The notes below the pieces were generated by a model. It saw only the letters and a list, made by a program, of their open reading frames with translations, searched no databases and was not told the DNA's origin. Position numbers and translations under genes: made by a program. A stretch of 48,335 nt of DNA from Gemmatimonadaceae bacterium (lineage in GTDB: Bacteria; Gemmatimonadota; Gemmatimonadetes; Gemmatimonadales; Gemmatimonadaceae), in assembly GCA_035606695.1 (NCBI GenBank), contig DATNEW010000035.1:116487-164821 (forward strand), read 5' to 3'. Positions 1-15,010 of the stretch are shown here, one piece after another. The stretch's first letter is position 1; every line of letters starts with the position of its first letter.

Positions 1-177
1 CTTCACGGAGAAGCGCTCGTGCGCGTCTCCCAGGGGTGGCATGCCGGATTCGTACGGTGTGTCTTTGACGGCCGAGGGCCGGGGGCGGAGTGTGAGGTGG
101 GAGAGCCCGAGCATCATCACCCCATTGAGGATGACGAAGCCGAGCAGGAGCAGGACTGGGAAGTACGTGTGAAGCAT
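1..177 (-). CDS. nuoA: NADH-quinone oxidoreductase subunit A (5' part)
   Basis: The first 59 codons of NuoA, a membrane subunit of respiratory complex I; the gene runs off the left edge. The start ATG at 177 is preceded by GGGAG four bases upstream. Residues 4-26 form one hydrophobic helix. After it comes the family signature TPYESGMPPLGDAHERFSVK, matching the conserved loop with PYE-G and GDA-ERFSVK found in NuoA proteins. The remaining two helices would lie outside the window. No frame break is seen. nuoA usually opens the nuo operon, so further nuo genes are expected to the left (inference). The gene is transcribed divergently from dcd. Confidence 0.88.
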   Translation of the reverse strand, partial: MLHTYFPVLLLLGFVILNGVMMLGLSHLTLRPRPSAVKDTPYESGMPPLGDAHERFSVK

Positions 178-251: not shown

Positions 252-406
252 ATGCGATGGGCGATGGGCGATGGGCGATGGGTGCTGGGCGTGATTCGTT
301 CTCGCGGTTGAGTGTCATGCGCCGTTCGCATAGCTTCACGCGTCCAATGGCCGACGCATGGCTGCGCCGAGCCCGCCCATCGCCCACCGCCCATCGCCCA
401 ACGCAT
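252..406. repeat. large hairpin made of 7-bp tandem units, upstream of dcd
   Basis: The left arm (252-289) contains four copies of GATGGGC-type units, ending in a variant copy. The right arm (371-406) contains the complementary CCCATCGC units. The arms pair over roughly 35 bp with a few mismatches and enclose a loop of about 81 bases. The dcd start ATG (405-407) sits at the outer edge of the right arm. The rest of the 178-404 gap shows no gene and no promoter I would defend, though it must hold the divergent nuoA and dcd start signals. Confidence 0.75.
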
Positions 407-959
407 GACCATCATGTCCGACCGCTGGATCACCCGAATGGCTCGCGACCATCGTATGATCGAACCGTTCGAGGACCGGCAGGTCCGCAAAGGCGTGATC
501 TCGTACGGCGTGAGCTCGTACGGCTACGACATGCGTGTCGCGCGCGAATTCAGGATCTTCACCAACGTCCTGAACTCGATCGTCGACCCCAAGGCGTTCG
601 ATCCGAAATCCTTCGTCGAATACGAAGGCGACGTCTGCATCGTGCCGCCTAACTCGTTCGCGCTCGCGCGATCGGTCGAATACTTCCGCATTCCGCGCAA
701 CGTGCTCACGGTGACCGTCGGCAAATCGACGTACGCGCGGTGCGGCATCATCACGAACGTCACGCCCTTCGAGCCCGAGTGGGAAGGCTTCGTGACGCTC
801 GAGATCTCGAACACGACGCCGCTGCCGGCGAAGATCTACGCGAATGAAGGCATCGCGCAGGTGCTGTTCTTCCGCGGCGAGGAAGAGCCCGAGGTCTCGT
901 ACAAGGACAAGGGCGGCAAATATCAGAGCCAGGTCGGAGTCACGCTGCCGAAGCTCTGA
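405..959 (+). CDS. dcd: dCTP deaminase
   Basis: Deaminates dCTP to dUTP (or directly to dUMP in bifunctional members), feeding dTMP synthesis in the cytosol. The 184-residue product has the trimeric dUTPase-like fold signatures: [14 protein letters not shown] near residue 28, [24 protein letters not shown], the block [20 protein letters not shown], and the C-terminal GGKYQSQ-GVTLPKL. ATG 405 (MTIMSDRWI) aligns with the usual N-terminus of this family; ATG 414 is the alternative. There is no good Shine-Dalgarno, and the start lies in the right arm of a large inverted repeat, which could affect initiation. Mono- versus bifunctional activity cannot be settled by eye. Confidence 0.93.
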
Positions 960-6146: not shown

Positions 6147-7162
6147 CCACGCGTGTGCATCTCCAGATGCGGATCGCGCTTCAACCGCTCGATGCCGACG
6201 AGCACATCGCGCTCCGGCACACTCGCCCGCACTTCGGCACCGCGATCGCGCCGAGCCGACCAGACTGATTCGATGATGTGGGCGATCTCCTCGTCGGTCG
6301 CGCCGTCTCGCAGCGGCCCGCGGAGATCCGTGCCGCGCGGCGAGTAGAGACACAAATACCACAGTCCGTCGGCGGTGAGGCGGCTGCGATCGCACGTGCG
6401 GCAGAAGGGCGCGGTCGTCGACGCGATGATGCCGAACGTCGTGCCGTCCGACAACCGGAATCGCTCGGCCGGCGCGGCGTCGACCGGCGCGAGCGCCTCG
6501 ATCCACCCGAACCGCTCCTCGAGCCGCGCGAGCATCTCGGCGCGCGATACAACCTGGTCCATCGACCAGTGTGTCGCGCCGCCGACGTCCATGTACTCGA
6601 TGAAGCGCACTTCGGCGTTCACGGCGCGGCCGAATTCGATCAGATCCGCGAGCTCGTCGTCGTTGCGGCCGCGGATGACCACCGAGTCGAGCTTGGTCGC
6701 CGTGAAGCCTGCGTCGCTCAGCGACGCAATGCCGCGCAGCACGCGGTCGTGCAGCGAACGACGCGTGAGCTCGGCGAAGCGGTCGGGTCGCAGCGTGTCG
6801 AGGCTCACCGTCACGCGCCGAAGACCCGCGGCGCGCAACGCTTCCGCATGCTCGGCCAGCAGCACGCCGTTCGTCGTCATCGCGAGATCGCGCACACGCT
6901 CGTCTTCATCGAGCAGCCGAATGAGGGTCGGCAGGTTGCTGCGCAGCAGCGGCTCGCCGCCGGTGAGGCGAATCTTGTCGACGCCAAGCGAAGTGAAGAT
7001 CCGCGCGACGCGGGCGATCTCCTCGAAGCTGAGCAGGTCGGCGCGCGGCAGCCACTCGTAGCTCTCCTGCGGCATGCAGTAGCGGCAGCGCAGGTTGCAG
7101 CGATCGGTAACCGAAATCCGAAGGCTGCCGAGCGGCCGGCCTAGTGCGTCGGGTCGACCCAT
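6140..7162 (-). CDS. moaA: GTP 3',8-cyclase (molybdenum cofactor biosynthesis)
   Basis: Radical SAM enzyme starting molybdopterin synthesis from GTP with MoaC (not in this window). The 340-residue protein has the N-terminal cluster motif C22-x3-C26-x2-C29 (CNLRCRYC) after RISVTDR, a GGEPLL SAM-binding motif, the C-terminal cluster cysteines in [13 protein letters not shown] with a further downstream cysteine in LWYLCLYS, and the conserved C-terminal Gly-Gly. The start ATG at 7162 lies inside moaE, giving a 22-base overlap. Confidence 0.95.
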
Positions 7163-7557
7163 TCACGCCTCCCGTCGACGTAGTGCTCGCGCTTCCAGAT
7201 CGGCACGCGCTTCTTGAGCTCCTCGATCACGTAGCGGCTCGCGTCGTATGCCTTGCCGCGGTGGGGGTGTGCAACCGCGATGACCACGCTCGCGTCGCCA
7301 AGCGCGAGCGTGCCGATCCGGTGCTCGACGACGATGTCGTCGCTGCCAAAGCATTCGACCGCCTCGCGCGCGATCGCATCGAGCTCACGCTCGGCCATTC
7401 CGCGATAGGCGCTGTATTCCATGCCGGTCACCGTGTGTCCGTCGTTCACGTTGCGCACGGTGCCGACGAACACGATGGCCGCGCCGTTCGCATCGTTGGC
7501 GACTTCACGAAGCAGTGCGGCCGGATCGAGCGCGCGCTCGACGATCGCGGTGCGCAT
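7141..7557 (-). CDS. moaE: molybdopterin synthase catalytic subunit
   Basis: Large subunit of molybdopterin synthase, which transfers two sulfurs from MoaD thiocarboxylate to precursor Z. The 138-residue protein shows FVGTVRN near residue 30, the [20 protein letters not shown] segment, and the active-site lysines in [15 protein letters not shown] 7557 is preferred over the TTG three bases upstream because it overlaps the moaD stop as ATGA. Confidence 0.95.
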
Positions 7558-7799
7558 CAACCACCCGCAACTGGTGGAATGATCGCGACTTCGTCGCCCG
7601 GCGATAGCCGGAAGTCGCGTTTGGCGTAGCTCTGATTTACCGCGACGAGCGGCTCGTCCGGCAAACGCTCGGCACCAGGCAACGTGCGGACGCGTCCCAT
7701 CAACTCGCCGACCGTCGAGCCGTCGTCGAGCTCGACCGAAAGCGAGCTCGTGCCGAGCTTGTCGGCGTAGGAAGCGAAGAGGAGGACGGAGATTTTCAT
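7557..7799 (-). CDS. moaD: molybdopterin synthase sulfur carrier subunit
   Basis: Ubiquitin-like sulfur carrier of 80 residues. It ends in the Gly-Gly (PPVAGG) that is adenylated and thiocarboxylated before sulfur is passed to MoaE. The frame begins MKISVLLFASYADKLG, a typical beta-grasp first strand. It is the first gene of moaD-moaE-moaA; a large inverted repeat built of 8-bp units starts five bases upstream of the ATG. Confidence 0.94.
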   Translation of the reverse strand: MKISVLLFASYADKLGTSSLSVELDDGSTVGELMGRVRTLPGAERLPDEPLVAVNQSYAKRDFRLSPGDEVAIIPPVAGG

Positions 7800-7803
7800 G
7801 AAG

Positions 7804-7927
7804 CGGGCGTATGGGCGTATGGGCGTATGGGCGTATGGGCGAACGTCAAAGAGCCTAGCGCGACTCGCACGAATATTATCCTGTCGGCACGCCCATGCGC
7901 CTACGCGTCCATACGCCCATACGCCCA
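7804..7927. repeat. large hairpin made of 8-bp tandem units, upstream of moaD
   Basis: The left arm 7804-7842 contains four GTATGGGC units. The right arm 7890-7927 contains the complementary GCCCATAC-type units with several substitutions. The arms pair over about 38 bp around a loop of about 47 bases. The design matches the hairpin at 252-406 next to dcd, although the unit sequence differs. Confidence 0.75.
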
Positions 7928-7934
7928 GTCAACC

Positions 7935-7973
7935 CATAAACGACAACGGCCCGATGCCATTCGCATCGAGCCG
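7935..7973 (-). terminator. probable terminator after the HU gene
   Basis: On the minus strand the 27-base hairpin at 7947-7973 has CGGC and CGATGC paired with GCATCG and GCCG, with one internal mismatch. It is followed by TTGTCGTTTATGGG. It lies 27 bases past the HU stop codon. The T-tract is interrupted, so efficiency is uncertain. Confidence 0.5.
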
Positions 7974-7999
7974 CGCATGAAATCGGAACGCGAAAGTGC

Positions 8000-8338
8000 T
8001 TATGCCTCCGAGAGTTCCTCTTCGTCCTCGAGCTGACTGATGTCGACGCCGGCGACCATGGCGCGCAGTTCCTTCGAGGGCTTGAACACGGGAACGGGCC
8101 GGGCCGAGACTTCCACCGGTGAGCCGGTCCGAGGGTTCCGCGCCATGCGTGTCTTGCGATGGCGAATCTTGAAGGTGCCGAACCCGCGCACTTCGATGTT
8201 CTTTTGCGTCTGAAGCGCTTCCTTGATCGACTCGAGAAACGCGTCGACCACGCGGGCGCAATCTTTCTTGGAGATCATCGGCCCAGCGGTGCGGGAAATC
8301 TGAGCCGTGACGCGTTCGACCAGGTCAGCTTTGGTCAT
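8000..8338 (-). CDS. HU/IHF-family DNA-binding protein
   Basis: Small nucleoid protein that bends DNA. The 112-residue product has the dimerisation helices (MTKADLVERV, VDAFLESIKEAL), then IEVRGFGTFKIRHRKTRMARNPRTG, where the DNA-contacting arm with the conserved RNPRTG lies. It ends in an acidic tail of about 20 residues (QLEDEEELSE), longer than in typical HU. GAGG seven bases before ATG 8338 is a good ribosome-binding site. The gene follows carA by 73 bases and is followed by a candidate terminator, so it probably ends the secG-carA-HU unit. HU versus IHF subunit type cannot be decided here. Confidence 0.93.
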   Translation of the reverse strand: MTKADLVERVTAQISRTAGPMISKKDCARVVDAFLESIKEALQTQKNIEVRGFGTFKIRHRKTRMARNPRTGSPVEVSARPVPVFKPSKELRAMVAGVDISQLEDEEELSEA

Positions 8339-8411
8339 TCGAATGCCTCATGTTCAGGCGCCCTGGGAGGGGGGCACGCTTACCGAACTTAGCGACGTTA
8401 ACTCTTATGTG

Positions 8412-9557
8412 TCAAGAGTTTGGCTCACTTGATGGCGTCGACGAGCCGGCGTGGGAACGAACGGTTTTGATGAACTCGTCGAACAGCGGGCGGGCGTCGT
8501 GCGGCCCGGGCGCCGCCTCGGGGTGGTATTGCACCGCAAAGATCGGCCGTTCGCGATGCTTGAGCCCTTCGACCGTGCCGTCGTTGAGATTCACGTGCGT
8601 GACCTCGAGCTCGGGCGCCCCTGGAATCGCGGTCTCGGTGCCTTCGACCGCGAATCCGTGATTCTGCGAGGTGATCAGGACGCGTCCCGTCGCGATCTCC
8701 TTCACCGGGTGATTTCCACCGCGGTGGCCGTACGGCATCTTCACCGTGCGCGCACCGTACGTGAGCCCCAAAATCTGATGTCCCAGGCAGATACCAAAAA
8801 TCGGCACGCCGCGGTCCGCGATTTCGCGCACGATTTCCGGCGCATACGTCACCGCGTCGGGATCGCCGGGGCCGTTCGAGAGGAACACGCCGTTCGGTTC
8901 GAGACTCAGCGCTTCGTCAGCCGTCGTTTCGGCGGGAATGACGGTGATGCGACACTCGTGTTCGGCGAAGAGCCGTAAGATGTTGCGCTTGATGCCGTAA
9001 TCGTACGCGACGATGTGATACGGCGCATCCGGATTGCCCCACGTGTAGCGCTCCGGCGTCGAAACGACGGATGCGAGGTCGAGGCCTTCCATCGGCGGAC
9101 AGGCATCGAGCACGGCGAGCGCTTCGCGCGTCGGCTCGGTGCCGAGGGCGATGACACCGCGCATCACGCCGGCGCTGCGGAGATGTCGCGTGAGGCGCCG
9201 CGTATCAACTTCTTCGAGCGCGGGAACTTGTGCCTCATCGAGCCACGTGAGCAAATCGCCTTCGGCGCGCCAGTTCGAGTACGTGCGCGACAATTCGCGC
9301 GCGACCACGCCGGCCACCTGCGGCCGCGCCGATTCGGGATCGGCGGTGTTGACGCCGTAGTTGCCGATCATCGGCGCCGTCATCACCACGATCTGTCCGC
9401 GAAATGACGGATCCGTAAAGACTTCCTGATAGCCGCTCATGTTCGTCGTGAACACGACCTCCGCCACTGTGGTGGCTTCGGTTGTAGCTATTTGACCACG
9501 AAAAAGGGTTCCGTCTTCGAGGAGAAGGAACCCTGGCCGTCCACGACGCTGAGCCAC
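8412..9557 (-). CDS. carA: carbamoyl-phosphate synthase small subunit
   Basis: Glutamine-hydrolysing subunit that supplies ammonia to CarB for carbamoyl phosphate (pyrimidines, arginine). The 381-residue protein has the N-terminal CPSase domain (FTTNMSGYQEVFTDPS) and a class I glutaminase domain with the nucleophile in FGICLGHQILGL and the catalytic His-Glu in YHPEAAPGP. The start is GTG 9557, five bases after the secG stop. carB is not adjacent and not in the window. The C-terminus ends in a short Ser-rich tail. Confidence 0.95.
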   Translation of the reverse strand: MAQRRGRPGFLLLEDGTLFRGQIATTEATTVAEVVFTTNMSGYQEVFTDPSFRGQIVVMTAPMIGNYGVNTADPESARPQVAGVVARELSRTYSNWRAEGDLLTWLDEAQVPALEEVDTRRLTRHLRSAGVMRGVIALGTEPTREALAVLDACPPMEGLDLASVVSTPERYTWGNPDAPYHIVAYDYGIKRNILRLFAEHECRITVIPAETTADEALSLEPNGVFLSNGPGDPDAVTYAPEIVREIADRGVPIFGICLGHQILGLTYGARTVKMPYGHRGGNHPVKEIATGRVLITSQNHGFAVEGTETAIPGAPELEVTHVNLNDGTVEGLKHRERPIFAVQYHPEAAPGPHDARPLFDEFIKTVRSHAGSSTPSSEPNS

Positions 9558-13220: not shown

Positions 13221-13367
13221 GTTCCTTGCTTCGGCGCTTCGCACCTCCGCTCGGAATTTCACCGATCGAGTTCCTTGCTTCGGCGCTTCGCACCTCCGCT
13301 CGGAATTTCGCCGATCGAGTTCCTTGCTTCGGCGCGTTGCTCCGCTCGCCCCTACGCTCGGAATTCT
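13221..13367. repeat. three tandem copies of a 49-bp element
   Basis: Copies begin at 13221, 13270 and 13319. The first two differ at one position; the third is diverged in its middle. Each has the form GTTCCTTGC, a CTTCGGCG/CGCTT core, and CTCGGAATT. A single copy of the same length and ends lies at 16236-16284, and an inverted 39-base version at 38547-38585. The third copy overlaps the comF stop codon. The array fills the comF-gap space, so any gap promoter lies within or just after it. Confidence 0.88.
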
Positions 13368-14942: not shown

Positions 14943-14970
14943 GTCGCTCGCTCCGCTCGCTTCGCTCGGT

Positions 14971-15010
14971 GCGTTCTGTGCGTTCTGTGCGTTCTGTGCG
15001 TTCTGTGCGT
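14971..15010. repeat. 9-bp tandem repeat upstream of aroE
   Basis: Four perfect copies of GCGTTCTGT (14971-15006) plus a partial fifth lie in the 89-bp gap between ywlE and aroE. The unit is a multiple of three, so length changes would keep any upstream in-frame start in phase with aroE. Confidence 0.88.

Follow-up and report, generated by a model that had tools for sequence, protein, structure and literature searches.

In cyanobacteria, the STRR heptamers and heptamer hairpins are tandem heptamers which sometimes flank a hairpin on both sides. G-rich heptamer repeats of the types GGGAATC and GGGGA(C/T)T have been described in Xanthomonas and Nostoc (Rehm et al. 2015, PMC4692102). According to that report, the Xanthomonas repeats are dispersed and mostly intergenic, have free letters in the unit (GGGANTN) and consist most commonly of four units, and the GGGAATC repeats obey a rule as to the side of the ORF on which they lie, no function being known for them. 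Two Xanthomonas genomes were found to contain 70 and 75 convergent pairs, for which stem-loops are possible; Xcc and Xac have one unit in common, and for 83% of the repeats in Xcc there is a matching one in Xac (PMC4692102). TAACTGA direct repeats occur in Beggiatoaceae, Cyanobacteria and Bacteroidetes (MacGregor 2015, PMC4679880). These resemble the repeats studied here in forming many short heptamer arrays, mostly a few bases before start codons, but they are direct (with one indirect repeat), not G-rich, and have one unit across phyla. In the literature searched we found no earlier account of such repeats in Gemmatimonadota, these two studies being the near cases, and the closest published case is that of the GGGAATC repeats of plant-pathogenic Xanthomonas.

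The locus described here lies between moaD and the gene of an HU-type protein in the genome of a soil bacterium of the Gemmatimonadaceae (Table 1). The named contigs with the best matches to the MoaE protein of the window belong to Gemmatimonadaceae/Gemmatimonadota. By the window we mean the whole stretch of DNA that was analysed (48,335 nucleotides).

Table 1. Features of the dcd and moaD loci, in coordinates of the window
Feature	Position	Strand	Remark
nuoA fragment (Oxidored_q4)	1..177	-	
(GGGCGAT) array upstream of nuoA	254..291	+	sister example
Inverted partner of the 254..291 array	374..404	-	directly before dcd
dcd (dCTP deaminase)	414..959	+	
moaD (ThiS family, PF02597)	7557..7799	-	start codon at 7799, 5 bp off array 1
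G-rich array 1, (GGGCGTAT)x4.6	7805..7841	+	G strand directed away from moaD
Loop between the arrays, 47 bp	7842..7888	.	
Degenerate inverted array 2, ACGCCCAT x4.9 on the + strand	7889..7927	-	G strand is the minus strand
Terminator-like hairpin of the HU gene	7947..7973	-	outside the arrays; by eye; counterpart in congeners
HU-type DNA-binding protein gene (PF00216)	8000..8338	-	upstream of the array region, stop at 8000

Tandem-array detection gave a period of 8 for both arrays, with 100% matches in array 1 and 74% in the inverted, degenerate array 2. As arms of a hairpin, 7805-7841 and 7890-7926 (37 nt each) have a complementarity of 86% and a spacing of 48 nt. Folded as RNA, the array region reached -75.7 kcal/mol (z -7.3) on the minus strand and -81.9 kcal/mol (z -9.4) on the plus strand, and none of 200 shuffles folded equally well. 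The structure of the loop alone was not unusual (z +0.66); we infer that the moaD promoter may be located inside it. Arrays of period 7-9 number five in the real window, where inverted pairs occur at two loci, dcd and moaD, whereas 60 second-order Markov copies of it contained neither arrays of this period nor inverted pairs. These results bear out the tandem-unit hairpin which the initial annotation had noticed beside moaD. An Rfam search of window positions 7000-8800 returned best hits of 20-22 bits against cut-offs of 40-90, none of them above the gathering score. The detector found no array at the orthologous moaD sites of four relatives (G002, G003, G004 and G005), thus the array is not needed there.

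The units at moaD and dcd had been regarded as two independent sequences. They do differ, GGGCGTAT being 8 bp and GGGCGAT 7 bp long, but they are not unrelated, since GGGCG is common to both. Some other repeats were seen in the window. A CGTCAGCG array of period 8 (969-1012), without GGGCG and without a clear inverted partner, starts 10 bp past the dcd stop codon, a 49-bp unit is present in 2.3 copies at 13221-13335, and GTGCGTTCT is repeated 4.7 times at 14969-15010. Upstream of nuoA, a near-palindrome (ACTTCGTGAAATCTTTCACTAAGTCC, 188-213) is nearly unchanged across G002-G005; it resembles the Rex operator.

The moaD hairpin belongs to a dispersed, lineage-specific family of G-rich repeats. 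The sequence GGGCGTATGGGCGTATGGGC has 82 exact places in the source genome (G000; 5.9 Mb, 50 contigs), overlapping places within one array being counted apart, and none in 58 relatives, five of which are congeners. Counted in the same way, GGGCGATGGGCGATGGGC has 36 exact places, in the source genome only among the seven searched; GGGGCGTC is a further recurring octamer unit. We read 917 kb of the source genome, of which about 270 kb was chosen around known arrays, and the stretches picked by round coordinates were on contigs that already bore matches. In these loci there are 113 arrays with at least three GGGCG cores, heptamer and octamer together. As in Xanthomonas, we are dealing with tandem units that carry a G-tract, have a 7-bp period and occur at more than 100 sites; the units, however, are GGGCGNT, GGGCGTAT and GGGGCGTC instead of GGGNATC or GGGGAYT, thus the repeats are of the same kind but are not the same repeat. 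The heptamer consensus GGGCGNT has six positions that are 95-100% constant, with C, G and T about as constant as the G-tract, and a free one (A 96, C 41, T 38 and G 17 in 192 internal units taken from 54 arrays selected for GGGCG cores). Among uninterrupted arrays with at least three cores, most heptamer arrays consist of four units (24 of 41), a preference again reminiscent of the Xanthomonas repeats; the octamers differ, with five units in 12 of 36 arrays and four in 5 of 36. As far as the sequence goes, a quadruplex motif is matched by four GGG tracts with 4-5 nt between them.

For the initial annotation, further examples in the genome and an excess over chance were what would support its reading, and both were found. 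In 648 kb picked regardless of arrays (window included), we counted 17 arrays with at least three GGGCG cores at 7- or 8-bp spacing, compared with none in Markov sequence and one with the reversed core, and the same scan yielded six inverted pairs, all with the G-rich arm first (G-first). Three G000 contigs end and one G002 contig begins within an array (L019, L021, L194, L157), therefore the assemblies may undercount long arrays. The unit AGACGGA, taken from a named relative (L113), was present in one of 59 genomes. We also considered whether freedom from stop codons is a rule for the units; 13 of the 15 listed units fit, both GGGTNTA forms tried fail, and the rule was dropped.

The orientation of paired arrays was uniform. 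Among 46 pairs not more than 300 bp apart in the loci read (one arm with at least three cores, the other with at least two, some pairs sharing an arm), 40 were G-first, six were direct and none was C-first. The 917 kb contains 83 clusters. Both orientations occur in 37 of these, always with the G-rich arm first (22 codirectional, 6 convergent and 6 divergent regions, 2 in predicted ORFs, 1 at a contig edge); 11 of the 37 have an arm of just two cores. Convergent pairs on opposite strands are another likeness to Xanthomonas. The remaining 46 clusters have no inverted partner. The idea that all hairpins are G-first was rejected: among perfect intergenic stems of at least 9 the source genome shows no bias, with 14 that are G-first, 15 that are C-first and 6 that are equal. 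Such stems lean to G-first in G002 (20, 11 and 8) and G003 (12, 7 and 1) but not in G005 (4, 7 and 4), so that hairpins of some species may have a mild general lean.

The arrays are located at gene ends. At 47 stop-side edges the G-rich strand reads outward, towards intergenic DNA, and at 15 it does not; 39 of the 47 fall within -1 to 7 bp of the stop codon, compared with a median intergenic gap of 72 bp. Six of the 15 reversed edges are within 5 bp of the stop, and the 15 include the single array at C8:100328. On the start side 49 edges read outward and 13 the opposite way, 21 of the 49 at 0 to 8 bp, although gene starts are rough, the genes having been called with a home-made codon model. 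The Xanthomonas repeats likewise follow a rule of position and strand with respect to ORFs. None of the 22 genes that begin directly beside a C-sense array has a Shine-Dalgarno-like word, compared with 72 of 226 genes that have more than 60 bp upstream. Sixteen of the 83 clusters (14 single clusters and two pairs) fall inside predicted ORFs, which sets them apart from the mostly intergenic repeats of Xanthomonas; some of them are close to where the predicted ORF begins or ends and could lie beyond the actual gene. In the arrays inspected within predicted ORFs the C-rich strand is in sense (12 of 12). Arrays in long ORFs (L017, L018, L021, L193, L223 and others) translate to AHTPxRPYA-like peptides.

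Congeners have other units in the same layout. The unit GGAGAGA has 17 exact places in G003 and is absent from six other genomes; the seven paired loci of G003 (from 11 listed pairs, one locus having been read twice) are all G-first. The array density of G003 is biased upward because some of its stretches were picked for GGAGAGA arrays already known there, and the reversed-core control (26 arrays, against 27 with the core) is uninformative because the GGAGAGA unit reads alike backwards. G002 has GGGTNTA at 15 places, again absent from six other genomes. A scan of 486 kb for this unit found 12 arrays, compared with none in Markov sequence and two with the reversed core, and the six paired loci of G002 are all G-first; the GGGCG-core scan of this genome gave six arrays (Markov 0, reversed core 2), with two G-first pairs and one direct pair. 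G005 is poor in arrays: the general detector found one in 220 kb, and 237 kb contained two GGGCG chains and one GGGT chain of at least three cores, without a pair.

In some cases the different units are at the same site. The nuoA-dcd region carries a GGGCGAT pair in the source genome, a GGAGAGA pair in G003 and a GGGTNNA pair in G002; in G004 no 6-9-bp array was detected there, with a CCACG run nearby, and G005 has no array. The single GGGCGTAT/GGGGCGTC array at C8:100328 corresponds to a GGGGAGA pair in G003 (L267), the short GTGAGGTC array at L032 to another GGGGAGA pair in G003 (L268), and GGAGAGA-type arrays at L295 of G003 to a GGGTNNA pair in G002 (L249). At dcd and at L249, the arrays of G002 were recognised by eye, and the core scan recovered them too. 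In G003 loops (e.g. L268, 1224-1249), heptamers of a second family (GTCAGAC-like) appear by eye to be nested inside the GGAGAGA/GGGGAGA pairs. Comparison of 53 orthologous junctions between the source genome and G003 showed arrays in both genomes at three, in G003 only at three (two of them weak), in the source genome only at one and in neither at 46 (Fisher one-sided p 0.003, for a small sample with enriched ascertainment). At 23 junctions shared with G002, four had an array in the source genome only and 19 in neither; for 32 junctions shared with G005 the figures were four (moaD counted twice) and 28, and for 28 junctions of G003 and G002 they were four, in G003 only, and 24. These counts are too low, because degenerate arrays, for example those of GGGTNTA in G002, escape the detector. 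The layout is therefore not one descended sequence, since congeners bear other units, at nuoA-dcd on the same site.

The initial annotation concluded from two units with one architecture that some mechanism creates such structures, and proposed inverted copying of a tandem array. The congener units agree with its statement that simple descent is insufficient; inverted copying, for instance by a template switch at a quasi-palindrome, by which an array would be copied onto the other strand and the arms would be alike, now appears improbable. The arm statistics cover 36 of 40 pairs, a small sample from which four pairs without a callable unit were dropped and in which some pairs share an arm. The two arms agree in period in 31 of the 36 pairs, compared with 18.0 expected (none of 10,000 permutations was as high), and the modal unit is the same in 10 of 36, where 5.7 would be expected (p 0.03); the 37 mixed clusters among 83 are probably more than scattered arrays would give. 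The excess in modal unit is, however, carried by the agreement in period: within period 7 the unit was shared by 2 of 15 pairs (2.9 expected) and within period 8 by 8 of 16 (6.3 expected), thus, for a given period, the arms of a pair resemble each other in exact unit no more than arrays of different loci do. The variable letters of the two arms did not agree in register, with p values of 0.23 and 0.90 (13 pairs in each case), and mixed pairs exist, with one heptamer and one octamer arm, with GGGGCGTC facing GGGCGTAT or, in G003, with a GGTGGAAC array opposite a GGAGCGCT array. Because the within-period unit and register tests were negative, it is not evident that either arm was made by inverted copying of its partner; moreover, such copying alone would not forbid C-first pairs. 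Equal periods are compatible with pairing between the arms or with both having arisen at the same time, and the matching of periods suggests that pairing itself matters. A mobile hairpin element that inserts whole, with arms and loop, is unlikely. REP/BIME elements, which are dispersed intergenic hairpins associated with a RAYT transposase, MITEs, and the eukaryotic foldback transposons, whose inverted arms of short tandem repeats enclose a variable loop, would be the models. In favour of insertion, a 201-bp region with arms and loop at C8:104385 is matched in G003 by genes that overlap by 4 bp, an exact or near copy of a terminator-like stem (GGGCGACGGA..TCCGTCGCCC) is present in 10 of the 37 mixed clusters, and the same stem (GGGCGACGG..CCGTCGCCC) has 15 exact copies in the source genome (e.g. 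C9:31775 and C15:282500) and none in five congeners; the G002 arrays have, by eye, an inner AGGGAAGGT-like core in common. On the other hand, the Y1 transposase domain (Y1_Tnp, PF01797) has no match in G000, G002, G003, G004 or G005 and one in G001, which makes a Y1 transposase a poor candidate for the spreader and spread by RAYT unlikely, judging from the genome sequences. Apart from the terminator-like stem and the pairs that share an arm, few of the 37 loops are alike, so that a shared sequence between the arms, which foldback elements and MITEs would have, is mostly lacking, and transposition together with the loop is not supported in general. Clusters without a partner are common (46 of 83), and the dcd loop looks, by eye, like the conserved dcd promoter.

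That the moaD hairpin is the intrinsic transcription terminator of the HU gene is highly improbable: it lies between HU and moaD and is very stable, but by eye no T-run follows the stem, and HU has, again by eye, a separate hairpin that lies clear of the arrays and recurs in congeners lacking them. A more serious possibility, though one we hold to be doubtful, is that the arrays are neutral slippage repeats only, and that their layout is what was left after harmful orientations were removed, without a job of its own. The scarcity of arrays in G005, the many orthologous junctions without arrays, and L195/L269, where G005 has a lone GGGCG seed between stop and start and the source genome an array, are as expected from slippage. 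Independent events should, however, result in a different unit at each locus and not in one octamer at dozens of loci, nor would slippage account for the constancy of the C, G and T positions, which is about that of the G-tract, or for the recurrence of arrays at the same junctions in the source genome and G003. Another reading is that a trans-acting, lineage-specific process (templated addition of repeats or directed inter-locus conversion) writes and rewrites G-rich repeats at fixed gene boundaries, lengthening the 3' G strand outward from the gene in the manner of telomere repeats. We give this idea little credence; if it were true, sister species would end up with different words at the same sites.

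The explanation towards which we lean, with some reserve, is that a lineage-specific repeat family spreads and slips, that selection at the RNA level filters its orientation, and that the hairpin may serve as a transcript boundary. It starts from what was observed, namely the dispersal, orientation, gene-edge position, hairpin potential and species-specific units of the arrays. The hairpin would consist of two separate arrays of one family (the heptamer GGGCGNT and the octamers GGGCGTAT/GGGGCGTC) at the edges of an intergenic region, and the family itself probably arose by slippage expansion and copying between loci. Given the observed orientation, selection probably keeps 5' leaders and coding RNA C-rich, which would avoid G-rich RNA that forms quadruplexes, resembles Shine-Dalgarno sequences or bears ATG, and it probably keeps RNA just past stop codons G-rich. 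Two arrays per intergenic region would then give a long G-first hairpin. Its likeliest job would be that of a transcript boundary: read-through RNA would fold up, and RNA starting in the loop would have only an unstructured C-rich leader. Effects at start codons alone do not set the orientation, because convergent regions are also G-first (6 of 6), which the arguments from translation leave unexplained. Nor can an RNA boundary be the whole reason, because the hairpin of a divergent region is off any single normal transcript, yet all six of these are G-first. The 15 reversed stop-side edges, such as C8:100328, likewise count against this explanation.

Compared with Xanthomonas, what is new here is the occurrence in another phylum, a class of octamers parallel to the heptamers, an orientation rule (G-first) that was counted, and sister species with different units, at nuoA-dcd on one and the same site. 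An architecture of the Xanthomonas type thus recurs in another phylum with other units and a single orientation rule, and congeners carry different units at the same site, at nuoA-dcd in three species and at a few more junctions in two. Since the layout can be separated from the sequence, the decade-old question of what role such repeats have and how they spread through a genome becomes testable by comparing sister species.
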